Part shown: one piece after another, positions 1,168 to 23,964 of the stretch
How positions within the stretch are numbered: position 1 is the stretch's first letter
Layout of the letters: every line of letters starts with the position of its first letter
Assembly: GCA_012838915.1 (NCBI GenBank)
Contig: DUOI01000108.1
Location: 1-64,000, forward strand
From: Clostridiales bacterium
GTDB lineage: Bacteria; Bacillota; Clostridia; Caldicoprobacterales; DTU083
Direction: 5' to 3'
Length of the DNA stretch: 64,000 bases
The notes under the pieces: generated by a model
What the model was told of the DNA's origin: nothing
The model's database searches: none
Seen by the model: only the letters and a program-made list of their open reading frames with translations
Made by a program: the position numbers and the translations under genes

Positions 1168-2907
1168 TTAGAATTTTTTTCTGGGTGTGTAGTGTGTATG
1201 CAGCAATTCATGTGCTTTATGACTGTTGGGCTCACCCAGATACTCCTCATAAACCTTCTTAACGGATGGATTTTCATGGGATTTCCGGACCGGCAGCGAC
1301 CTGTCCTCATCATAAATGGCAGCAGCCCGGGCTTCACGAACATTTATTTCCATCTGTACCTGAGCCGTTACAATCGGCTGTCCTCCGCCGGTAACACAGC
1401 CGCCGGGGCATCCCATAACCTCAATAAAATGATATTCCTTCTCGCCGGACTTCACCTTTTCCAGTAAAGCTTTGGCATTGGCAGTTCCATGTGCAACCGC
1501 TGCCTTTACTGTAATATCTCCCAGGGGTACTTCTACCTCTTTCACACCTTCCAACCCGCGTACCGCATGAATTTCCAGGTTATCAAGGGGCTTTCCGGTT
1601 ACGATTTCGGAAACCGTTCGCAAAGCAGCTTCCATTACTCCTCCGGTAGCGCCGAAGATAACGCCGGCACCGGTGGAATCTCCCAGGGTAGGATCGAAAT
1701 CCTCATCAGCCAGTTTTACAAAATCAATGCCGGCCTGTTTGATCATCTTGGCCAATTCTCTTGTAGTCAATACTACGTCTACATCAGGATAGCCTGTAGC
1801 GCTCAATTCCGGTCTTGCGGCCTCAAACTTCTTGGCAGTGCAGGGCATAATTGAAACCACAAAAATATTGGCAGGATCTATATTGTTTTTTTCAGCATAA
1901 TAGGATTTGACCACAGCTCCCATCATTTCATGGGGAGATTTGCAGGTGGACAGGTTATCCAGAAATTCAGGATAATTGTGCTCACAATATTTAATCCATC
2001 CAGGACTGCAGGAGGTGATCAAGGGCAGTTTTCCGCCATTTTTCAGCCTGCCAAGCAGCTCAGTGCCTTCTTCCATAATGGTCAGATCTGCAGCAAAATC
2101 GGTATCGAATACCCGGTCAAAACCCAGCCTGCGCAAGGCTGCTACCATTTTACCCGTTACACGGGTTCCGATGGGCATGCCGAATTCCTCTCCCAGAGCT
2201 ACGCGAACAGCAGGAGCAGTTTGTACAACCACATGAAGATCCGGGTTGTTGATTGCATCCCATACCCTGTCGGTATCATCCTTCTCCCTCAATGCACCTA
2301 CCGGGCAGGCTTCAATGCATTGCCCGCAGTTAATGCAGTTGACTTCTGAAATATTTTTTCCGAAAATCGGTTCTACTATGGTTCGAAAGCCCCTCTCCGT
2401 TGCTCCTATGGCACCAATTCCCTGTATTTCTCTGCAGGCAGCCACGCATCGTCTGCAAAGAATGCATTTGTTGGGATCCCGAACAATGGAAGGTGAGAAT
2501 TCATCTACTGCATAATCTATCTTTTCTCCGTCAAAACGAATATCATCCACGCCCAATTGTTTGGATAGAGCCTGTAATTCACAGTTTTCACTTCTGACAC
2601 AGGTCAGACATTTTCTATCATGGTTGGATAGAATTAATTCCAGGTTTATCCTCCTCGCTTCCCGTACCGCAGGAGAATTGGTTCTGACCTCCATCCCGTC
2701 CGCTGCCGGATAAACACATGAAGCTTGTAGGTTTCTGGCGCCCTTTACTTCTACCAGGCACATACGGCATGCACCTATTTCATTGATCCCCTTCAGGTAG
2801 CATAAGGTGGGTATTTGAATATTGGCGGATCTGGCTGCTTCCAATACCGTCGTTCCCTTGGGCACTTTCACTTGGACGCCGTCTATGGTTAACCTTACCA
2901 TTTCCAT
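1168..2907 (-). CDS. hydA: [FeFe]-hydrogenase catalytic subunit (HydA/HndD) of an NAD-linked, bifurcating-type enzyme
   Basis: This is the H2-forming or H2-oxidising subunit of a cytoplasmic multimeric hydrogenase. In order: an N-terminal [2Fe-2S] domain (Cys in the CYLKG, CRMC and ASC segments), a His-Cys cluster segment (HDRKCLTC, then NC), two [4Fe-4S] motifs (CILCRRCVAAC and CINCGQCIEACP), then the H-cluster domain with loops TSCSPGW, MPCTAKKFE and MGCPGGC, and a C-terminal small-subunit-like region. The length, 579 residues, fits HndD/HydA. ATG 2907 is chosen because AGGGAG sits eight bases upstream; GTG 2916 overlaps it. Oddity: TSCSPGW has Ser where well-studied enzymes have the proton-relay Cys. 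It is last in its operon. Confidence 0.96.
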   Translation of the reverse strand: MEMVRLTIDGVQVKVPKGTTVLEAARSANIQIPTLCYLKGINEIGACRMCLVEVKGARNLQASCVYPAADGMEVRTNSPAVREARRINLELILSNHDRKCLTCVRSENCELQALSKQLGVDDIRFDGEKIDYAVDEFSPSIVRDPNKCILCRRCVAACREIQGIGAIGATERGFRTIVEPIFGKNISEVNCINCGQCIEACPVGALREKDDTDRVWDAINNPDLHVVVQTAPAVRVALGEEFGMPIGTRVTGKMVAALRRLGFDRVFDTDFAADLTIMEEGTELLGRLKNGGKLPLITSCSPGWIKYCEHNYPEFLDNLSTCKSPHEMMGAVVKSYYAEKNNIDPANIFVVSIMPCTAKKFEAARPELSATGYPDVDVVLTTRELAKMIKQAGIDFVKLADEDFDPTLGDSTGAGVIFGATGGVMEAALRTVSEIVTGKPLDNLEIHAVRGLEGVKEVEVPLGDITVKAAVAHGTANAKALLEKVKSGEKEYHFIEVMGCPGGCVTGGGQPIVTAQVQMEINVREARAAAIYDEDRSLPVRKSHENPSVKKVYEEYLGEPNSHKAHELLHTHYTPRKKF

Positions 2908-2934
2908 CTTTGTCACTCCCTTTTCTGAATAACT

Positions 2935-4731
2935 CTAACCCTTCACTATAGCCTTGAAGGGGCACTTTTCCATACAGGCACCACATTTGATGCACTTGCT
3001 CTGATCAATAGTATGTGCACTCTTGCGTTCTCCTGAGATTGCATCTACAGGGCAAGCTTTTACACAAAGTCCGCATCCTCTGCAAAGCTCGGCCTGGATG
3101 GTTATCTGAAGCAATGCCTGGCATATGCCTGCCGGACACTTCTTATCGCGTATATGAGCCTCATATTCGTCTCTGAAGTATTGTATGGTACTCAAAACCG
3201 GATTTGGAGCAGTTTGACCCAGTCCGCAAAGAGCAGACGCTTTTATGTTTTTGCCTAATTCCTCCAGTTTCTCGATGTCGCCTTCTTTACCTTGTCCTTT
3301 GGTGATGCGATCCAAAATTTCAAGCATGCGCTTGGTTCCGATGCGGCAGGGTGGACATTTGCCGCAGGATTCATCTACGGTAAAATCCAGAAAGAATCTG
3401 GCGATATCTACCATACAATTGTCCTCGTCCATAACAATCAAACCGCCGGACCCCATCATAGAGCCAATCTTTGTCAGCGAATCGTAATCAATGGGCGTAT
3501 CCAGGTGCCGCGCCGGAATACAACCGCCGGAAGGGCCCCCCGTTTGCGCAGCTTTGAATTCCTTGCCGTTTGGAATTCCGCCGCCGATTTCATAAATAAT
3601 CTCTCTTAAGGTGGTGCCCATGGGTACTTCAACCAAACCGGTGTTGTTGATTTTTCCTCCCAGTGCAAATACCTTGGTTCCCTTGCTCTTTTCTGTTCCT
3701 ATGGTTTGGAACCATTCAGGGCCGTTCAGTATAATCTGAGGTATATTAGCATAGGTCTCTACATTATTTAACAAGGTCGGCTTGCCGAATAAACCTTTAA
3801 CAGCAGGGAAAGGCGGCCTGGGTCTGGGTTCTCCTCTGCGGCCTTCAATAGATGCCATCAATGCTGTTTCTTCGCCGCATACAAAGGCACCGGCACCCAG
3901 TCTCAATTCCAAGTCAAAACTGAAGTCTGTTCCAAAGATGTTCTTACCAAGTAGACCTGCTTCCCGGGCCTGTCCTATGGCAATTGTCAAACGTTTTACA
4001 GCTATGGGATACTCCGCCCTGACGTAGATATATCCCTGATCAGCACCTATTGCATAGCCTGCAATTGCCATGGCCTCCAATACGCTGTGAGGGTCACCCT
4101 CCAATACGCTTCTGTCCATGAATGCGCCGGGGTCTCCTTCGTCGGCATTGCAACATACATATTTCTTATCACCTTCAGCTTTGGCGGTAAATTCCCACTT
4201 TACACCTGTAGGGAAGCCTGCTCCTCCCCTGCCTCTCAACCCGGATGCCTTGATAATGTCAATGGTTTCTTCGGGAGTCATTTCAAGCAATACCTTACCC
4301 AAAGCCTTGTAGCCGTCAAAGGCAATGTATTCATCAATGTTTTCCGGGTCAATGACGCCGCAATTGCGTAAAGCAAGGCGTTTTTGCTTCTTATAAAAAT
4401 CCACTTCATTCAGAGACTTTATGGCCTCGTCTTCATGAATACTGTCATGATATAGAAGATCGGTAACAATTCTGCCCTTAAGCAGATGTTCGGAGACAAT
4501 TCTCGAAACATCTTCTACTGATACCCTGCTGTAAAAAGCACCCTCGGGATAAACAATTACAACAGGTCCGACTGCACATAATCCAAAACAGCCGGTTTGA
4601 ACCAGCTTGACTTCATTTTCCAAATTATTTTTTGCCAGCTCAGCTTTGAACGTCTCCATTACATCCGCAGAGCCGGAAGAATGGCACCCTGTTCCTCCGC
4701 ATATCAAAACGTGGGAACGAAAAAATTCCAT
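2935..4731 (-). CDS. hydB: NuoF-like flavin and NADH-binding subunit (HydB/HndC) of the hydrogenase
   Basis: It carries FMN and the NAD(H) site and exchanges electrons among NAD(H), ferredoxin and the HydA subunit. In order: an N-terminal thioredoxin-like [2Fe-2S] domain ([10 protein letters not shown], then CFGLC), the NuoF core with the glycine-rich [13 protein letters not shown] nucleotide loop and [10 protein letters not shown], a cluster motif [15 protein letters not shown], and two C-terminal ferredoxin motifs ([12 protein letters not shown] and [12 protein letters not shown]). All 598 residues match the HydB/HndC architecture. The gene lies 27 bases upstream of hydA and 28 bases after hndB. 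Bifurcation is inferred from family knowledge, not from sequence alone. Confidence 0.95.
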
Positions 4732-4759
4732 TTGAAACCCTCCTTATTCAGATCTGTTT

Positions 4760-5128
4760 CTACTCTGCGGCACCGATCGTATATTCGGTAACAACATGGC
4801 CGTTTACAATATGCTCTGCAACAACCCTCTTTACCTTGTCCGCAGTCATTTTTACATAGGTGACCTTTTCCTCGCCCGGGCGGGTAACCTCGACCATGGG
4901 CTCCAAACGGCAAACACCAATGCAACCCGTCTGAGATACGGTAACGTCACCGAGATTTCTCTTTTTAACTTCTTCCAGGAAAGCCAGCAGAACCGGACGG
5001 GCACCTGCTGCTATGCCGCAGGTAGCCATTCCTACCACAACACGGGTTCCTCCCGTTCTTTCTTTTCTTAAATTAACGGAATCCAGTGTTCTCTGCTTGA
5101 TTTCTTCCAATTCCTTCAGAGACTTCAT
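4760..5128 (-). CDS. hndB: thioredoxin-like [2Fe-2S] ferredoxin subunit (HndB-like)
   Basis: A 122-residue protein with the thioredoxin-fold ferredoxin Cys pattern: MATCGIAAGA near residue 37, then TGCIGVC near 68-72. It matches the small HndB-type subunit of four-subunit NADP- or NAD-linked hydrogenases (HndABCD type), where it is thought to pass electrons between the NuoE-like and NuoF-like subunits. It starts 3 bases after the HATPase stop and precedes hydB by 28 bases, so it belongs to the operon. Its exact role is inferred from family and position. Confidence 0.88.
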   Translation of the reverse strand: MKSLKELEEIKQRTLDSVNLRKERTGGTRVVVGMATCGIAAGARPVLLAFLEEVKKRNLGDVTVSQTGCIGVCRLEPMVEVTRPGEEKVTYVKMTADKVKRVVAEHIVNGHVVTEYTIGAAE

Positions 5129-5131
5129 ATT

Positions 5132-5680
5132 TCATGCACCTCCATTTAACTCTTCAATACCATTCCTTATATATTCTCTAATCCAATCCACAACAATCGG
5201 ATCTGCGATGTTTACTTTGCCCAATATCTCACGAGCCTCACGGGTATCAAACCTAAACTGTCTGCCTGGTGTCTCATGATTGTAAACAAAATTCACTTCC
5301 GGATTCAGAAAGATCAATGTAGCTAACGTCTCTTCCGGCCTGCCCAGGGGTAGGCAATCAATATGTCTTGTGTAAAACAAGGCCAGCAATGTGGTACCCT
5401 CGTGTTTACGGGACATAACCTGCAAACTCCCGCCGGTGGCTTCGGCTGATGCCCGGAACAAGGGAATTCCCAAACCTACTTTTCGTGAAGTGCGGGTGGT
5501 GTAAAAAGGGTCGGATACTTGATTCAGCTGATGCTCATCCATGCCTTTCCCATTATCCCGAATTTTCAGCCACATACAGCCTTCTTTCAGAAGCTCCCGT
5601 ATATAAAACTCAACGAGGGTTGCACCCGCTGCGATAGAATTTTGCGCCAAATCCAGTAAGTGAAGTGAAATATCCTCCAT
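5132..5680 (-). CDS. histidine-kinase-like ATPase (HATPase) protein inside the hydrogenase operon
   Basis: A 182-residue stand-alone GHKL ATPase. Seen: an N-box-like segment HLLDLAQNSIAAGA near residue 7, a G1-type box RDNGKGMD near 42, and a glycine loop KVGLGIPLFRA near 67. There is no His-phosphotransfer or sensor domain. Such proteins act as anti-sigma kinases, Ser kinases or partners in signalling. Its place between the NuoE-like and HndB-like subunits, with gaps of 3 bases on each side, means it is co-made with the enzyme. Similar insertions occur in other clostridial hydrogenase operons, as I recall. The function is unknown and a regulatory role is inferred. Confidence 0.85.
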   Translation of the reverse strand: MEDISLHLLDLAQNSIAAGATLVEFYIRELLKEGCMWLKIRDNGKGMDEHQLNQVSDPFYTTRTSRKVGLGIPLFRASAEATGGSLQVMSRKHEGTTLLALFYTRHIDCLPLGRPEETLATLIFLNPEVNFVYNHETPGRQFRFDTREAREILGKVNIADPIVVDWIREYIRNGIEELNGGA

Positions 5681-5683
5681 ATG

Positions 5684-6172
5684 CTATCTGTTTCTGTACT
5701 TATCGATGATTCCTTTTATATCTGACGGAACCAGGCGGCCATAAACGTCATCATTTATCATAATAACCGGTGCCAAGCCGCATGCACCCAGACAACGCGT
5801 TGCTTCAAGGGTGAAGTTGTAGTCTTCGGTAGTATCGCCTGGTTTGATATCCAGCTCTTTGATTAACTCATCCAAAATGGCTTGTGAGCCTTTTACATAG
5901 CAGGCAGTACCCATGCATACACCGATAGTATACTTTCCCTGGGGTTTCAGTGTAAATTGAGAATAAAAGGTCGCCACTCCGTATATATCACTAACCGGAA
6001 TATCCAAAGCTTCCGCTATATATTCCTGTACCTCTATCGGCAGGTAGCCGAATATTTCCTGTGCCTTGTGCATAATCGGCATCAAAGGCCCTTCCTTATC
6101 CTTGTATTCATCAATTGTTTGCTGCAGCTCTGCAAATTTATCTTTATTCTCCAGAAGAATAGAAGCTGACAT
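5684..6172 (-). CDS. hndA: NuoE-like [2Fe-2S] subunit (HydC/HndA) of the hydrogenase
   Basis: First gene of the hydrogenase operon. The 162-residue product is a NuoE/24-kDa homologue: a helical N-terminal bundle with the GYLPIEVQEYIAEAL and YGVATFYSQF motifs, then a thioredoxin-like [2Fe-2S] domain with CMGTACYVKG near residue 85 and CLGACGLAPV near 127. It sits next to NuoF-like HydB in the complex and helps pass electrons to or from the flavin. The ATG is preceded by an AAAGGGAGGGAG site. A sigma-A-like promoter and a perfect palindrome lie upstream in the 174-base gap. Confidence 0.94.
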   Translation of the reverse strand: MSASILLENKDKFAELQQTIDEYKDKEGPLMPIMHKAQEIFGYLPIEVQEYIAEALDIPVSDIYGVATFYSQFTLKPQGKYTIGVCMGTACYVKGSQAILDELIKELDIKPGDTTEDYNFTLEATRCLGACGLAPVIMINDDVYGRLVPSDIKGIIDKYRNR

Positions 6173-6227
6173 GCATATACTCCCTCCCTTTATTACGTAT
6201 TTTTAATATACAATAATAGCCTAATAT

Positions 6228-6256
6228 ATTATCTCATATACTTGGAATACAATCAA
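6228..6256 (-). promoter_or_regulatory. predicted promoter of the hydrogenase operon
   Basis: TTGATT (6251-6256) and GATAAT (6228-6233) are separated by 17 bases on the minus strand, about 56 bases ahead of the hndA start. The -35 box is only moderately close to consensus, which would suit an activator-dependent promoter. Confidence 0.5.
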
Positions 6257-6270
6257 TAAAAACGTCAACT

Positions 6271-6292
6271 TTTTCACAAATATTTGTGAAAA
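6271..6292. promoter_or_regulatory. perfect palindrome upstream of the hydrogenase promoter, candidate operator
   Basis: The core TTCACAAATATTTGTGAA extends by two A/T pairs on each side to 22 bases of perfect dyad symmetry. Its centre (6281.5) is about 60 bases upstream of the predicted transcription start. The half-sites point the opposite way from CRP/FNR and Rex consensus sites, so I cannot assign a regulator. Confidence 0.5.
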
Positions 6293-6346
6293 AAAAGAAT
6301 AAATCATTCGACTATTATATATCACTTGATAAAAATATAATAGCTG

Positions 6347-7048
6347 TTATACAAAACAATCGGATAAATATTTAAATATTCCACTTAATGTATATTCTTC
6401 GACGGGAATGGTCATTTTTCCGTCTAAAATTTGACTAAGATTATGAGCATCTGATGAAATGAGAAATCTATGATTGGGATAATCCTGACAATCGAAGGGT
6501 GAATTTTGTGAAAATTCCAACAATGTCAGCCCCAAATCAGGGGGTAGAAAACCCAGTTGGGATAATACGCTATAAGACGGTTTATTGATATGTGCCGGAA
6601 CGGGAAGCCCCCCATGTTTCCGTATCAATTCTATTGTATCGTCAAACGAGATGGAAAGTGAGGTTAACAGCGATTGCTGTTTTTCACCTATGATTTCATC
6701 CCGTTCATCCATAATCCATTGATGGCCGAATAAGCATGAATTGTTGCGGATACCATCATAAAATTGCTCCATTTGTGCATTAAAGGCATAAAGAGAGGGC
6801 AGATCTTTAAAATAGGCTAACAGATGAACTTCTTCCCTGGTTTGTATCTCCATGCCGGGTACAACCACCAGCCTGCCTCCTGCCGCCTTGGTAACAGCTT
6901 CAACATTGTCACAACTATTGTGATCCGTAACGGCAATGGCATGTAAACCGTTTAACAGGGCCATATTGACTATATTGTTAGGAGTCATATCATCATCACT
7001 GCAGGGGGACAATGCCGAGTGAATATGCAGATCTATAGAAGCCTCCAT
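6347..7048 (-). CDS. PHP-domain phosphoesterase
   Basis: A 233-residue PHP-superfamily protein. Metal ligands are visible in DLHIHSALSPCSDDD near the N-terminus, ITDHN near residue 40, a central PAHINKPS segment, and a C-terminal SSDAHN. PHP enzymes hydrolyse phosphomonoesters or nucleotides with a multi-metal centre, and some act on signal nucleotides. It follows the DRTGG gene by one base and ends 175 bases before the hydrogenase operon. I start at ATG 7048; a TTG at 7060 has its ribosome site too close. The substrate cannot be read from sequence. Its place between a sensor-like set and the hydrogenase suggests a signalling role (inference). Confidence 0.85.
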   Translation of the reverse strand: MEASIDLHIHSALSPCSDDDMTPNNIVNMALLNGLHAIAVTDHNSCDNVEAVTKAAGGRLVVVPGMEIQTREEVHLLAYFKDLPSLYAFNAQMEQFYDGIRNNSCLFGHQWIMDERDEIIGEKQQSLLTSLSISFDDTIELIRKHGGLPVPAHINKPSYSVLSQLGFLPPDLGLTLLEFSQNSPFDCQDYPNHRFLISSDAHNLSQILDGKMTIPVEEYTLSGIFKYLSDCFV

Positions 7049-7049
7049 T

Positions 7050-7406
7050 TTACTCTTCAACCTTCCGACCTATACCCATTTCATAAAGTTTTCCAGCCAG
7101 CTCAAAGGCGTCCATCCGGGATGAAAGGATGGTTACACCTTCCTCCTGAGCCTTTTGTATGGTTTTTTCATCCATTGAGATGCCGGAAGGCAGAATCACC
7201 CCCGCCAGCTCCAACAGGGAAGCCACAGCTACAACATTTGCATGTGCCTGAACTGTAATCCAAACAGCATCCTTTTTACCGTGTGCCATTACCCAGCTGA
7301 GCAAATCACAACAACAGCCGGAGAGCACTTCGCGATTTAAACCGGCTCCTTTAGTTAATACCGTCAAGTCCAATTCTTTAACCAGTTCTTCCATTGTCTT
7401 TTTCAT
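7050..7406 (-). CDS. DRTGG-domain protein (second copy)
   Basis: A 118-residue protein made of a single DRTGG-like domain, a ligand-sensing fold also found in phosphotransacetylase relatives and in CBS-linked proteins. It is a paralogue of the gene at 9404-9751: both carry a Cys-containing motif followed by D-L/M-x-S, then VLAFV or VMAHG, and both end with a GKLY segment. Here the motif is SGCCCDLLSWVMA, with three adjacent Cys instead of ACGSD. The next gene (PHP) starts one base after its stop. No catalytic residues are evident; a regulatory role is inferred from context. Confidence 0.82.
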   Translation of the reverse strand: MKKTMEELVKELDLTVLTKGAGLNREVLSGCCCDLLSWVMAHGKKDAVWITVQAHANVVAVASLLELAGVILPSGISMDEKTIQKAQEEGVTILSSRMDAFELAGKLYEMGIGRKVEE

Positions 7407-7466
7407 ATATGTTTCTTTCCTCCCCTGCCCTTATCAGGTTTCACCATACTACAAAGATTCTTTAAT

Positions 7467-8789
7467 TTATGTATGTTTATCCCCTTCCCTGCCTGAGGGT
7501 ATCTTATCCGAAAGCTCTATCATTTCCTCTGCCAACGCTTTGACCTTTTCCCGCAGCTTAAAAACGCAATCCATCTCTGATGCATTCCCCCGGACGATAT
7601 CCTCAGCAAGAGTTCTACAGCTGGGGGAGCCGCAGGATCCGCAGTCCAGGCCAGGCAGATTCTTATTGATTCGTTCCATTGTCTCCATCTTCTGAATAGC
7701 TGCCACTATGTCATGGTCAAGTTTCATGACCGGCTTTTCAATAATATTCTTTTGAAGCTGCCATTGTATATGTTCTTTGATGTACTCAATATCGGAATCT
7801 GCCGGCGGCTTATTCCGGATGCCTTTTGCTAGCAGCCGGATCCGATTTTTAGCTACATAGCCGTTTTCAAAGGTCAGAGGTCCACCTACACAACCGCCTG
7901 CACAGGACAAACCTTCAAAAAAATCCAAATCCGTCATTTTGTTGTTTTCAATTTCTTCCAGCACGGGAATGACATTTCGAATGCCGTCCACTGACAGATA
8001 ATTATCTATACCTAAAGATTGGCCTTCCCCCCCGGTGACAGCCCAACTCAGGCCTGCACCGGTTGCCTGCTGCAGTTTTTCCGTATTATCGGGTATTTTA
8101 AGGTAGGAAGCGATTGGCCCGTAAACATCCAGAATCGAGATTGCGCCATCAACATGGGAGACTTCATTACCTATGGGATTACGGATACTGGTCATCTTGG
8201 CAGCGCAGGGGGTTATGAAAAAAGCACCTATTTCCTGAAGTGGAATATTCAAACGCCTGCTTGCCTCATCCTTTGCCATCTGAGCTGCAATTTCCATTGG
8301 TGACTCTATTCTTATGAGATGATCCAGCAGGTTGGGAAAGCGAACCTGTATGAGTCGAACGATTGCAGGACAGGCAGAAGAAATCAGCGGCTTTTTAATA
8401 TCCGGAACAGCCAGCTTTTCCTTAATCAATTGTGTAACGACATCTGCACCTTTTGCTACCTCAAAAACATAATCAAAGCCCAGTCTTTTCAAGGCAGCCA
8501 GTACCTTGTCACAATTTTTAAGTTTCTTAAACTGGCCAAAGAGAGTGGGCGCAGGAAGCGCGATTTTATACTGATATCTATCCAGAATGGATAGGGGATC
8601 GGTAACGGCAATTTTTGCATGATAAGGACATGCGCGAATGCATTCTCCACAGTCAATGCAGCGTTCATCAATAATTCTTGCTTTTCCGTCCCGTACCCGA
8701 ATTGCTTCGGTAGGGCATCCCTTGATGCAATTGGTACAGCCCATGCATTTGCTCTTGTTCAGCGTAACTGAATGATAGTATTCTCCCAT
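7467..8789 (-). CDS. hydrogenase-like Fe-S protein with altered H-cluster loops (sensory or non-classical [FeFe]-hydrogenase)
   Basis: A 440-residue protein: two ferredoxin motifs (CMGCTNCIKGCP and CIDCGECIRACP) at the N-terminus, a hydrogenase large-chain domain, and a C-terminal Fe-S knot (LDCGSCGSPSCRTL with a distal Cys). The H-cluster loops read SSACPAIV, TPCAAKMTS and LSCAGGCVGGP. The four cluster Cys are in place, but flanking residues differ from TSCCPGW, MPCTAKK and MGCPGGC. This matches the group C/D, sensory or low-activity [FeFe] class; no PAS domain is visible. ATG 8789 has AGGTGG upstream. Its neighbours (DRTGG, HATPase, PHP) suggest that it senses H2 or redox state (inference). 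Confidence 0.85.
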   Translation of the reverse strand: MGEYYHSVTLNKSKCMGCTNCIKGCPTEAIRVRDGKARIIDERCIDCGECIRACPYHAKIAVTDPLSILDRYQYKIALPAPTLFGQFKKLKNCDKVLAALKRLGFDYVFEVAKGADVVTQLIKEKLAVPDIKKPLISSACPAIVRLIQVRFPNLLDHLIRIESPMEIAAQMAKDEASRRLNIPLQEIGAFFITPCAAKMTSIRNPIGNEVSHVDGAISILDVYGPIASYLKIPDNTEKLQQATGAGLSWAVTGGEGQSLGIDNYLSVDGIRNVIPVLEEIENNKMTDLDFFEGLSCAGGCVGGPLTFENGYVAKNRIRLLAKGIRNKPPADSDIEYIKEHIQWQLQKNIIEKPVMKLDHDIVAAIQKMETMERINKNLPGLDCGSCGSPSCRTLAEDIVRGNASEMDCVFKLREKVKALAEEMIELSDKIPSGREGDKHT

Positions 8790-8923
8790 TGCTGCCACCT
8801 GCCTTGCTTATATATGCTTATTTGCTTATGTCTGATTAGTGCTGAATACGTCTCATATATCTTCAGCGATAACCGCATATATGTTTTGTCTGATTACATA
8901 CTCTGCCTTGAATGGTATACGGG

Positions 8924-9397
8924 CTATATTTGAAAGGTTATTTCCAGTGTAGTACCTTGTCCAACTTTAGACTGAATGTTAATATAGCTTGCACAGCGCT
9001 TGATATTGGGCAAACCCATACCTGCACCAAACCCCATCTCCCTGGCCTGTTCGGACGCGGTGGAGTAACCTTCCTTCATAGCCAGTTCTATATTGGGTAT
9101 ACCGGGGCCGGTATCCTCGGTAATGATCTGGATTTTATCCGGCGTAACCTGAAAAATAAGCCTGCCTCCCCAGGAATGAATGACAAGATTCATTTCTGCC
9201 TCATAACAGGCTATGGCCGCCTTTCTAACCAATTCCCCATCTACTCCAAGCTGTTTCAGCAGATTCTTAGTTCTTCGGGATACCTCTCCTGCGGATGAAA
9301 AATTCTCTGCTTCTATTGAATAAACATGTCTGACTAATACATCTTTACCGGCCGTGTCTGTTTTGTTGTCAAAAGATTTGCTTCCCTCAGGATTCAC
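8924..9397 (-). CDS. RsbW-like HATPase (anti-sigma-factor-type serine kinase fold)
   Basis: A 157-residue GHKL ATPase. Seen: an N-box AAIACYEAEMNLVIHS near residue 60, a G1 box EDTGPGIP near 93, and a G2 loop MGFGAGMGLPNIKR near 120. This order and size match RsbW/SpoIIAB-type proteins, which bind and release a sigma factor or phosphorylate an antagonist. No sigma factor or STAS-domain antagonist lies nearby. GTG 9397 follows a GGGGGGTGA site. It lies between a DRTGG gene, with a six-base gap, and the hydrogenase-like sensor. It may transduce redox input; its partner is unknown. Confidence 0.85.
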   Translation of the reverse strand: MNPEGSKSFDNKTDTAGKDVLVRHVYSIEAENFSSAGEVSRRTKNLLKQLGVDGELVRKAAIACYEAEMNLVIHSWGGRLIFQVTPDKIQIITEDTGPGIPNIELAMKEGYSTASEQAREMGFGAGMGLPNIKRCASYINIQSKVGQGTTLEITFQI

Positions 9398-9403
9398 TGG
9401 ATT

Positions 9404-9751
9404 TCACCCCCCGGATAACCCTGCTTTATATAGTTTGCCACATGCAGTAAACAGGGTATCACTGGTAGACATCAACACAATGGAATGCTCTTTTGCCATG
9501 TCCACTATGTCACCGGCAGGATGCTTCCCCCTGACAAAAACAATGGCAGATACATCCAGTAACTCTGCCGTACGTATTACATGATGGTTAGTTAAGCCGG
9601 TCAATAATAAAGTTTGTTCTTTTACAAAAGCCAATACATCACTCATCAGGTCGGAGCCGCATGCTGAATATATCTTCTCATTCAGCATATTGTGGCCGTG
9701 CAAGACTTTGGCGTTTAGTATTTCCTTGATCTCATGGAGGGTTAAGGGCAT
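9404..9751 (-). CDS. DRTGG-domain protein (first copy)
   Basis: A 115-residue DRTGG-domain protein opening the signalling-like set upstream of the hydrogenase operon. It contains SACGSDLMSDVLAFV near residue 30, a motif I associate with this small family, and a VFVRGKHP segment. I use ATG 9751, which has GAGGTG just upstream, rather than ATG 9772, which has none. The paralogue at 7050-7406 lacks the CGSD form. In known proteins the domain binds small ligands, possibly nucleotides. The six-base gap to the HATPase gene implies one transcript. Function is inferred only from context. Confidence 0.82.
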   Translation of the reverse strand: MPLTLHEIKEILNAKVLHGHNMLNEKIYSACGSDLMSDVLAFVKEQTLLLTGLTNHHVIRTAELLDVSAIVFVRGKHPAGDIVDMAKEHSIVLMSTSDTLFTACGKLYKAGLSGG

Positions 9752-9829
9752 AACACACCTCAGGTATTTCATAGGAATGTACTGATAAACAAGGCTGATA
9801 AAGGCTGAAAGTCATATATAGATACTTTT

Positions 9830-10714
9830 CTATGTAATCTGTTCCATATAATCCTTATATAGCATCAGCATATCGATATAAGTATACTTGATTTCCGATG
9901 AAATTGCCACCTTATCATTGGAGTTTTTTGATAAGACTTTATCTAACGACAGACAACTGCCATTATATAACTCGACAAGCCCGGCTAAAATAGCATTATT
10001 GTTTTGACCGGCGTTTATTTCCTGCAGCTTTTCTTTCTTTAATTCCATTTCCGTTTTTGTTTCACGAATCTTATCAACTGCTTCAGACGGACTTATGGCA
10101 CCGGAATCCAGACTTACGATTATTTCTTCCAATGAACGGTATTTTTCCTCCCAAATCCCGTAAGCTGAACGAATGATATCCACATTTTCCTGGGTAGCTG
10201 TTATCTGCATATCTGCCCCGCCGGTAGCCAATTTATATACATGAGATTCGATATCCTCTGCCCTTAATTCATCCCTGACCTGCTTTGCGTCATCTTCCGA
10301 TTGAAAGCCAATTGCCATTACCCGGTAAAACCCGTTATTGTAAATGTAACCTGCTCCTCCCCTTTTTTTAAGCTGCTGTGAAAAAGCCTCTGCATTTTCC
10401 TCGTCAGCAAAGGCTCCCATTTGAATAGCATACAGAGACAAAGCATTTGCTTTCAATGTATCAGTAATCTTGGTTGTATCCTTTACAGGCTCATCTGTCT
10501 CATCAGGTAATGACAATATTGGGTCATCGCTATCTTGAACCTGCCCTCTGCCTGATTCCTCTCCGTTCAAAACAGGCAGAATCAAATTGCTGACGAACTT
10601 CCCCAATGTACCGGCAGAAGCCACATAAATAAGTCCGAATCCCAGCAGCATTAACAGTATAAAGGTGGCATACCTTTTCTTTGACTGATTCTTTCTAAAT
10701 CTTGAGTAACGCAT
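9830..10714 (-). CDS. SPOR-domain membrane protein
   Basis: A 294-residue single-pass protein. A basic start (RFRKNQSKKR) is followed by one membrane segment (residues about 16-36), an acidic linker, and a SPOR repeat near residues 90-160 (AIQMGAFADEENAEAF, then GFYRVMAIGFQSEDDA). SPOR domains bind denuded peptidoglycan at division or engulfment septa. The C-terminal part is helical, with KEKLQEINAGQ-type segments. ATG 10714 is chosen because AGGGGG lies six bases upstream; ATG 10738 has a poor site. It is probably monocistronic or co-read with the DRTGG gene 78 bases downstream. A role in cell division or sporulation is inferred. Confidence 0.82.
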   Translation of the reverse strand: MRYSRFRKNQSKKRYATFILLMLLGFGLIYVASAGTLGKFVSNLILPVLNGEESGRGQVQDSDDPILSLPDETDEPVKDTTKITDTLKANALSLYAIQMGAFADEENAEAFSQQLKKRGGAGYIYNNGFYRVMAIGFQSEDDAKQVRDELRAEDIESHVYKLATGGADMQITATQENVDIIRSAYGIWEEKYRSLEEIIVSLDSGAISPSEAVDKIRETKTEMELKKEKLQEINAGQNNNAILAGLVELYNGSCLSLDKVLSKNSNDKVAISSEIKYTYIDMLMLYKDYMEQIT

Positions 10715-10951
10715 GTCCATCCCCCTCTTCTCTTTCATCCTTGTCCTGTGGATTATTTATATTTATGGTGCAAATAATTTAAATATGATAGAAGGAGGCA
10801 AATAGCGTCCAAAAGTTGTAGGCCTTTTTGCAGAATATAACAATGGGACCAAAATAGTTGTATACCAATAGATTTAAGAGCATTCATGAGATAATTCGAC
10901 GTAATCAGATACCTTGAAGTTTTTTAGCTTATATTGGTAACTTGCAGTATT

Positions 10952-11366: not shown

Positions 11367-12995
<1,629 letters not shown>

Positions 12996-13017
12996 TCCGG
13001 AATAACAGTAATGAGCT

Positions 13018-13048
13018 AAAAAAGTGATTGCACTATGCAATCACTTTT
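13018..13048 (+). terminator. bidirectional terminator between groEL and the DivIVA-like gene
   Basis: AAAAGTGATTGC pairs with GCAATCACTTTT around a five-base loop, with T-rich tracts on both strands. It terminates groESL, and the final codons of the convergent gene (13033-13617) are encoded inside the hairpin. Confidence 0.88.
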
Positions 13049-13617
13049 CCTTTTTTCTTCTCCATATTCAACATCTCATCAATGGAGGATAGTTCAGATT
13101 CATTCAATGCATTTAACTTTCCGTCGCTGCTTTGAAAGCCGGATGTGGTTATTTCCTCTGTATTTTCGTTTATAAGAATGGTGTCACTGATTTCCTTTGC
13201 TGCGTAATAGTTGATATCATCACGAAACCTTTCTATCAGGTTCACCAGTGTTTTTTCAAATTCCAGCAACTCCCGGCGAACTTCACGAAATTTTCTACTC
13301 CACTTTTCCTTTTCGATTTTCAACTGTTCTTCCTCGGCCCGGATTTTTTGCTGTTCCTCCTCTACTATTGCCTGTGCCCGCTGCTCGGCTTTAATAAGCG
13401 CACGTGATATATATTTTTCCTGATTGGTAAAACGTTCTATGCATTGGGTCAGTTCCTCGTTCTGCCTTTTTAGATTCCGGGCTTCCTGAGCCAATTCAAA
13501 CATACGATCTTTTTTCTTTCTGAGTTCTTCTTCATAGTCCTTTGTCAATTCCTCTAAATAGCGGTCAACTTCTTCTTTGTTATAACCTACTATACTAGTT
13601 GAAAACTGTTTTCTCAT
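13033..13617 (-). CDS. DivIVA-like coiled-coil protein
   Basis: A 194-residue protein with a short N-terminal DivIVA-type motif (FSTSIVGYNKEEVDRYLEEL) followed by a long charged coiled coil (about residues 25-130: LAQEARNLKRQNEELTQ, EEEQQKIRAEEEQLKIEKEK). The DivIVA family marks curved membranes and organises cell poles or septa. ATG 13617 has GGAGGAGG nine bases upstream; an upstream GTA/ATG extension encodes the ribosome site itself. The stop codon lies inside the groEL terminator. The gene is convergent with groEL. The exact role is not known; paralogues of this type are common in clostridia. Confidence 0.75.
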   Translation of the reverse strand: MRKQFSTSIVGYNKEEVDRYLEELTKDYEEELRKKKDRMFELAQEARNLKRQNEELTQCIERFTNQEKYISRALIKAEQRAQAIVEEEQQKIRAEEEQLKIEKEKWSRKFREVRRELLEFEKTLVNLIERFRDDINYYAAKEISDTILINENTEEITTSGFQSSDGKLNALNESELSSIDEMLNMEKKKGKVIA

Positions 13618-23413: not shown

Positions 23414-23964
23414 TGGCTGCCACCTCCCGAAACCAACTCTGCCCGGTAATAATCAATTGCATAGTTTACAGCACCGGTAACCGCGTTTGAAGTAACAGTG
23501 GCTCCGGTTATGGCATTAATATCGTCATTAGCCAGGGGACTGCTTCCCGGTTTTCCGTAATACTGTTCGTAAAAATCAGATTCCTGTGCTTTCGCACCCA
23601 GGCCGGGTGTCTCCGTTTGCTGTACTATCCTCACTCCGGTTATGGTTCCTTCTGTGTCAATTCCGACAATCACTACTATCTGCCCGCCATAACCACTGTT
23701 AAATGTTTTGAAAGTATGGCCCTTTGTATTACCGTCAACCATCCCCTTATGCGCTTCAAGTATATTAGGGTAGGTTTCCTTACTTACCTCCAGTTGTACA
23801 AATTCTTCTGCTCCTTCCAGGACTGTTGCTTTGGCTTCGTTATCTGCCTTTTCCGCCTGTACTTTGATTGGCTCTTCCGTTATCATCTGTGTTAAAGCCA
23901 ATGCAAAGGTAGCTATCACCGTAATCAAGAAAAGCTTCAAGCCCATTTTCAAGGTATCAGACAT
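23410..23964 (-). CDS. rnfG: Rnf complex subunit G (covalent FMN subunit)
   Basis: A 184-residue subunit with one N-terminal membrane helix and an extracytoplasmic FMN-binding domain. The flavinylation motif DAITGATVTSNAVTGAVNYA near residue 155 contains the Thr that carries FMN in the family. ATG 23964 gives MSDTLKMGLK, the usual clostridial start; longer readings would run far into rnfD. It overlaps the rnfD stop by eight bases and the rnfE start by four, so D, G and E are translationally linked. Confidence 0.94.
   Translation of the reverse strand: MSDTLKMGLKLFLITVIATFALALTQMITEEPIKVQAEKADNEAKATVLEGAEEFVQLEVSKETYPNILEAHKGMVDGNTKGHTFKTFNSGYGGQIVVIVGIDTEGTITGVRIVQQTETPGLGAKAQESDFYEQYYGKPGSSPLANDDINAITGATVTSNAVTGAVNYAIDYYRAELVSGGGSQ

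Follow-up and report, generated by a model that had tools for sequence, protein, structure and literature searches.

A group D [FeFe]-hydrogenase and its recurrent SpoIIAB-fold, DRTGG and PHP neighbours in a Clostridiales genome

How does a hydrogen sensor that has no PAS domain pass on its signal? The question was raised for the group D (M2e) [FeFe]-hydrogenases in PMC8163306, whose available text describes proteins with N-terminal clusters, an H-domain and a C-terminal Cx2Cx4Cx16C cluster, with no PAS domain, the relay Cys299 missing and Met353 replaced by Ser or Thr. TamHydS of Thermoanaerobacter mathranii takes up a diiron site after maturation and is active, as described there (PMC8163306), and its H2 evolution is reported at roughly a thousand-fold below that of group A enzymes (PMC11803613). 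The group D proton path is given as E252-E289-S249-D265 in TamHydS numbering in the accessible text of PMC10407848. In the portion of PMC13104023 available to us, the C-terminal cluster of TamHydS keeps its oxidation state under H2, and an enzyme with that cluster altered has similar activity; a simple redox relay through the C-terminal knot is therefore not supported. Group D was assigned a sensory role from the position of its genes, which are located close to kinases and upstream of bifurcating hydrogenases (PMC3561251, available text), so that this role has been inferred in print. For group C, deletion of HfsB changes fermentation, which supports a regulator role (PMC11837493 and PMC5707799, available text). 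Such systems are relevant to anaerobes in which H2 control of fermentation matters. Here we compare with them a hydrogenase-like gene and its neighbours in a 64,000-nucleotide stretch of a Clostridiales genome (the window; contig DUOI01000108.1, assembly GCA_012838915.1).

Architecture and class of the window HydS

The hydS gene occupies 7467-8789 on the minus strand, in a frame of 440 codons plus stop that begins with ATG (there is also an in-frame GTG at 8798), and encodes a group D (M2e) [FeFe]-hydrogenase-like protein of 440 aa. Two [4Fe-4S] motifs stand at its N terminus (C15, C18, C21 and C25, then C44, C47, C50 and C54; 8628-8747, minus strand; Pfam Fer4; invariant in 39/39 aligned sequences). 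The H-domain follows (Fe_hyd_lg_C, E 4.9e-35), and the C-terminal Cx2Cx4Cx16C [4Fe-4S] motif (C383, C386, C391 and C408; 7566-7643, minus strand; invariant) is matched by PF04060 "FeS" at residues 378-410 (E 2.6e-12), which bears out the extra C-terminal Fe-S knot described in an earlier note on this DNA. Pfam returned no PAS domain among its 14 matches at E<=0.001 and no small-subunit domain. The AlphaFold2 model (pLDDT 92.2, pTM 0.88) agrees with this assignment, as all 50 matches listed by Foldseek against the PDB are [FeFe]-hydrogenases, including the hydrogenase subunit of hydrogen-dependent CO2 reductase. Among NCBIfam models the top matches are likewise hydrogenases, all far under their cut-offs (TIGR04105, 152.2 of 450 bits; TIGR02512, 109.5 of 405.95 bits), and routine annotation would therefore leave the protein without a precise name.

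All four H-cluster cysteines are present (C140, C195, C296 and C300), within the three loops that the earlier note had picked out without naming a strand, and which lie on the minus strand: SSACPAIV (residues 137-144; 8358-8381), TPCAAKMTS (residues 193-201; 8187-8213) and LSCAGGCVGGP (residues 294-304; 7878-7910). The residues that tune group A enzymes are indeed changed. A139 takes the place of the group A proton-relay Cys (CpI Cys299), T193 that of CpI Met353 (Ser191 in TamHydS) and L294 that of CpI Met497 (Leu291 in TamHydS). To call the loops rewritten, as the note did, misplaces the emphasis, since such loops are the norm in a class already described in print. The four cysteines are invariant in 39/39 aligned sequences, the window HydS included, as are the three accessory cluster motifs; the H-cluster cysteines and the group D proton path are conserved about equally with these accessory clusters. 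By regular expression, PC.AK is matched by 30/30 sequences and S.[AC]CP by 26/30 (window HydS included in both), with variants such as NSACP and SSSCP among those missing the second pattern. The loops are far above chance, and by these patterns they are typical of the family.

Which described enzyme does the window HydS resemble most closely at the level of named residues? The comparison set was the 24 TamHydS residues named in the available text of the papers, with the HydS of the congener Thermoanaerobacter wiegelii standing in for the T. mathranii sequence; the T. wiegelii protein is identical at 24/24, with the same numbers. The window HydS is identical at 19/24, the exceptions being F119L, K126V, L157I, S191T and S249T. 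Its group D proton path reads E255, E292, T252 and D268, and the group A path is absent by the same kind of residue comparison.

The phylogeny gives the same placement. The H-domain tree (maximum likelihood; 57 rows, after removal of one duplicate, L113_p9982) has the window HydS inside group D (100/100), a clade anchored by T. wiegelii HydS through its residue match and not by TamHydS itself. Its closest neighbour, 83% identical, comes from a metagenome-assembled Clostridiales genome (L035). A branch with 98/96 support has group D on one side together with the PAS-bearing rows of group C, and the group A rows, the window's own HydA among them, are set apart (100/100); group B labels were assigned from length and the lack of a C-terminal FeS motif. 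A PAS domain scored above cut-off in 6/6 group C rows scanned, of the seven in the tree. The window HydS has neither loops of the group A type (TSCCPGW/MPCTAKK) nor a place in the group A clade, the placement that the earlier note had named as counting against its reading, and it has neither a C-terminal PAS domain nor a place in the group C clade. HydS is thus an ordinary member of the known group D, with TamHydS as its type enzyme, and loops altered in this way are what the family normally shows. Low turnover, high H2 affinity and a stabilised Hred state are further marks of group D.

The earlier note had allowed either an H-cluster or a simpler cluster. The first half of that claim is favoured: TamHydS binds an H-cluster after maturation (PMC8163306, available text), and the maturases are encoded in the genome. 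HydG and HydF score above cut-off and HydE is found on two contigs, so the H-cluster can be built. The two parts of HydE (profile positions 1-210 and 170-340) lie at the end of contig C52 and the start of contig C43 of genome G000, an assembly break, and HydG and HydF come after the HydE part on C43.

Neighbouring genes and their co-occurrence with HydS

The gene group that contains hydS spans 1168-9772 and lies entirely on the minus strand. Read in that direction, it begins with DRTGG-domain protein b (9404-9772; PF07085) and a GHKL ATPase of the SpoIIAB/RsbW fold (8924-9397; Pfam HATPase_c), continues through HydS to DRTGG-domain protein a (7050-7406; PF07085) and a PHP-domain phosphoesterase-like protein (6347-7060; PF02811), and then enters the hydABC group: HydC (NuoE-like; 5684-6172), a second GHKL ATPase (HATPase_c; 5132-5680), a thioredoxin-like [2Fe-2S] protein (4760-5128), HydB (NuoF-like; 2935-4731) and HydA, an NADH-dependent [FeFe] hydrogenase of group A6 (1168-2916; NF040763, 952 bits). 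HydA is the likely regulated catalytic partner. Upstream of DRTGG b, at 9830-10738, lies a SPOR-domain protein (PF05036, E 1.3e-14), which is found at the same place in the nearest relatives L035, L037 and L038 and, by eye, in G037.

The ATPase beside HydS shows a GHKL fold with N, G1 and G2 boxes. The best Foldseek match of its AlphaFold2 model is SpoIIAB (1til, E 4.9e-10), with RsbW next; the TM score against SpoIIAB reaches 0.81 by target length, at an identity of about 14-20%. Its ATP-site residues E66, N70, D95, G97 and G99 and the GAGMG stretch are invariant in 14 SpoIIAB-like sequences, and Pfam returned no His-kinase dimerisation domain in the protein. A STAS protein or a sigma factor is the usual partner of SpoIIAB and RsbW; neither was found among the ten Pfam-scanned window genes or the five block genes of T. 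wiegelii. The DRTGG proteins are similar to parts of nucleotide-regulated enzymes (i.e., a CBS-DRTGG pyrophosphatase and the N terminus of HPr kinase); matches of a DRTGG protein to "Pizza" designs look spurious. In the PHP protein, the His, Asp and Glu positions typical of PHP enzymes are invariant in 11 sequences, and the window protein keeps this set.

How constant is this arrangement? A scan of named genome contigs gave the best 80 of at least 596 HydS loci, so the counts describe the nearer relatives. Most of these are Clostridia; a few have bin labels of Syntrophorhabdales, Deltaproteobacteria, Spirochaetes or Sumerlaeota. Counting among these 80 only the loci with room on the contig to judge, the SpoIIAB-like gene is upstream of HydS in 79/79 and DRTGG b in 75/78, whereas DRTGG a is downstream in 72/78 and the PHP gene in 70/76. 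The complete block of DRTGG, SpoIIAB-fold ATPase, HydS, DRTGG and PHP was found in 68/74 such loci, and all six incomplete ones keep the SpoIIAB-like gene. HydA and HydB lie downstream on the same strand in 30 of the 49 loci of this set with at least 7.5 kb of room; HydABC is therefore not always adjoining.

The same association holds across whole genomes. HydS, and profiles of the SpoIIAB-like protein and the PHP protein, were searched in 148 genomes drawn evenly from the same class; these genomes are mutually related, so that Fisher values overstate their independence. HydS is matched at E 5.4e-94 or better in 72/148 (the next listed match has E 5.5e-47), and the family is common in the class. 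Strong SpoIIAB-like matches (E 5.3e-40 or better) occur in 71/148, a count from which a weak match in G145 (6.8e-16) was left out. Both proteins are found together in 70/148 genomes, with 68 of the 70 pairs adjacent on the same strand. Three genomes have only one of the two, and in each the match sits at a contig end: the SpoIIAB-like gene of G132 ends at 7556 of 7565, HydS of G084 ends at 23637 of 23683 and HydS of G049 starts at base 2. The PHP profile matched 69/148 genomes, all among the 72 with HydS. The HydS genomes without a PHP match are G057, which is cut at a contig end, G071 and G037; in G037, a single-contig genome, PHP is truly absent and the rest of the block is intact.

Several loci depart from the common arrangement. 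Genome G140 carries a second DRTGG b/SpoIIAB-like pair with no adjoining HydS (L140:1912-2767), near a flavoprotein that by eye resembles CoA-disulfide reductase; such an arrangement hints at a possible minimal signalling unit made up of just the DRTGG protein and the kinase. In L069, the pair of group D HydS and SpoIIAB-like protein adjoins an ORF (11401-13314) with a second H-domain-like region, PF04060 and MCPsignal (E 2e-31), possibly a hydrogenase-chemoreceptor fusion. In L090, a protein that looks CheW-like by eye lies directly upstream of the HydS/SpoIIAB-like pair.

A search of openly available papers found no description of the five-gene block, and a full-text search found none that brings DRTGG together with FeFe hydrogenase. 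HydS itself belongs to a characterised class, to which it adds one sequence; the quantified DRTGG/SpoIIAB-like/HydS/DRTGG/PHP block is the fresh part.

The region upstream of hydC

The intergenic region before hydC (6173-6346, minus strand) contains a 24-bp palindrome rich in A and T, together with a match to a sigma-A-like promoter. The palindrome, TTTTTCACAAATATTTGTGAAAAA, is perfect, lies at about 6270-6293 just upstream of the hydC promoter region and is unique in the genome at up to two mismatches over its 18-bp core. We rejected it as a shared hydC operator, as the screened relatives showed no perfect dyad ahead of their hydC genes. L035, the nearest of them, retains just one half, and the palindrome may be local. 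By eye, several relatives have a -10-like TATGANATAAT, or a sequence close to it, upstream of hydC. The sigma-A promoter scan gave a weak signal (32 observed, against 20.6 +/- 5.2 in shuffles). A Rex operator was also set aside: a Rex-like consensus gave 12 weak matches in the window, a number reached by 2 of 100 shuffles, and none lies upstream of hydC.

Candidate signalling route, rival readings and known systems

We give a probability of about 0.8 to the reading in which HydS is a group D enzyme of the TamHydS type—cytoplasmic, slow and bearing an H-cluster—that most likely reports H2 rather than serving bulk production. The earlier note had proposed a sensor rather than a fast catalyst; the slowness fits the published TamHydS rate, and the sensor role agrees with the available literature, where it is likewise inferred. 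Under this reading, H2 would bind the maturated H-cluster, protons would leave through E255-E292-T252-D268 and HydS would change shape. The SpoIIAB-fold ATPase, its near-constant neighbour, could read that state and, by serine/threonine kinase activity or by partner switching, act on the two small DRTGG proteins. Serine/threonine phosphorylation seems the likelier chemistry, because the protein has no match to a His-kinase dimerisation domain. The PHP protein, which many but not all loci have, might reverse or reset the signal, and the output would adjust how much HydABC is made or how active it is. With a head that senses, a partner resembling a kinase, small proteins as relays and a phosphoesterase, such a chain of signalling would be plausible. 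Several observations weigh against it: HydABC is not always adjacent, G037 has no PHP gene and six of 74 loci are missing part of the block, neither a STAS protein nor a sigma factor turned up among the ten scanned window genes, and TamHydS retains measurable H2 turnover and has a C-terminal cluster that does not respond to H2.

A fuller version of this proposal we rate at even odds. It makes group D HydS the H2-binding head of a dedicated PAS-free cassette, in which the SpoIIAB-fold kinase would be the near-exclusive partner, the two paralogous DRTGG proteins would be substrates or nucleotide-binding relays and PHP would be the off-switch; H2 pressure would thus give rise to a signal based on phosphorylation or nucleotides, by a route that differs both from the PAS one in group C and from the HoxJ one in [NiFe] sensors. 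The "AraC regulator" reported beside TamHydS would then be a DRTGG protein without a DNA-binding domain. T. wiegelii HydS is flanked by a SpoIIAB-like ATPase and a 111-residue DRTGG protein, in which no DNA-binding domain was found at E 0.1, and we suspect that the "AraC" label is an annotation slip. The near one-to-one SpoIIAB-like pairing and the recurrent DRTGG and PHP genes supply named candidate partners for group D signalling.

Could HydS work without sensing H2? It might register redox state or oxygen through its accessory [4Fe-4S] clusters, with the H-domain as a scaffold. The three accessory motifs are invariant, and TamHydS forms an unusual O2-reacted state (PMC8163306, available text). 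However, conservation is about the same for these accessory clusters as for the group D proton path and the cysteines of the H-cluster, and the C-terminal cluster of TamHydS is described as unresponsive to H2, with similar activity when it is altered (PMC13104023, available text). These points count against redox sensing only in part, and we rate this reading as unlikely. We think it somewhat less likely still that HydS has a minor catalytic role, or serves as an electron valve, in aid of HydABC (e.g., by uptake of H2 at low concentration), with neighbours that regulate the operon and are not partners of HydS. Its electron-relay clusters and H-cluster ligands are complete, and TamHydS turns over H2 in both directions with raised H2 affinity (PMC8163306, available text); yet HydS has the group D proton path in place of the group A one, the published TamHydS rate is about a thousand-fold under group A (PMC11803613, available text) and near-exclusive pairing with a SpoIIAB-fold protein would be odd for a mere catalyst.

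A degenerate pseudo-hydrogenase that holds only a [4Fe-4S] cluster would account for loops unlike the group A consensus. It is highly improbable, given that the four H-cluster cysteines are invariant in 39/39 sequences, that the diiron site is reported to enter TamHydS and give an active enzyme (PMC8163306, available text) and that maturases are encoded in the genome. The H2-reporting reading of HydS remains the one we prefer.

Among known systems, TamHydS (available text of PMC8163306, PMC10407848, PMC11803613 and PMC13104023) is like the window HydS in domain order and the Cx2Cx4Cx16C C terminus; in having Ala for the relay Cys, a hydroxyl residue for Met353 and Leu for Met497; in the Glu-Glu-Ser/Thr-Asp proton path; and in the Arg, Glu and Asp conserved at the interface of the N- and C-terminal domains. 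The window protein is 54% identical to that of the T. wiegelii congener. Group C (M2f; TmHydS, Ruminococcus HydS and HfsB) shares the N-terminal clusters, the H-domain and the C-terminal FeS motif and is sister in the tree, but its scanned rows carry a PAS domain, which the window HydS does not. A separate minus-strand ORF (L115:1-2559), which reaches the locus edge, combines an H-domain, FeS and PAS with a sigma-54 activator AAA domain (Sigma54_activat, E 5.4e-69) and is, by its predicted domains, a direct fusion of a group C-like H2 sensor with an activator of transcription. The window's group A6 HydA shares the H-domain and the maturation needs of HydS, whereas its loops (TSCSPGW, MPCTAKK and MGCPGGC), its small-subunit domain and its clade differ. 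Finally, the SpoIIAB/RsbW anti-sigma kinases match the HydS neighbour in fold and ATP-site motifs; they differ from it in sequence, at about 14-20% identity, and in the STAS or sigma partner, which was not seen in the neighbour's block.
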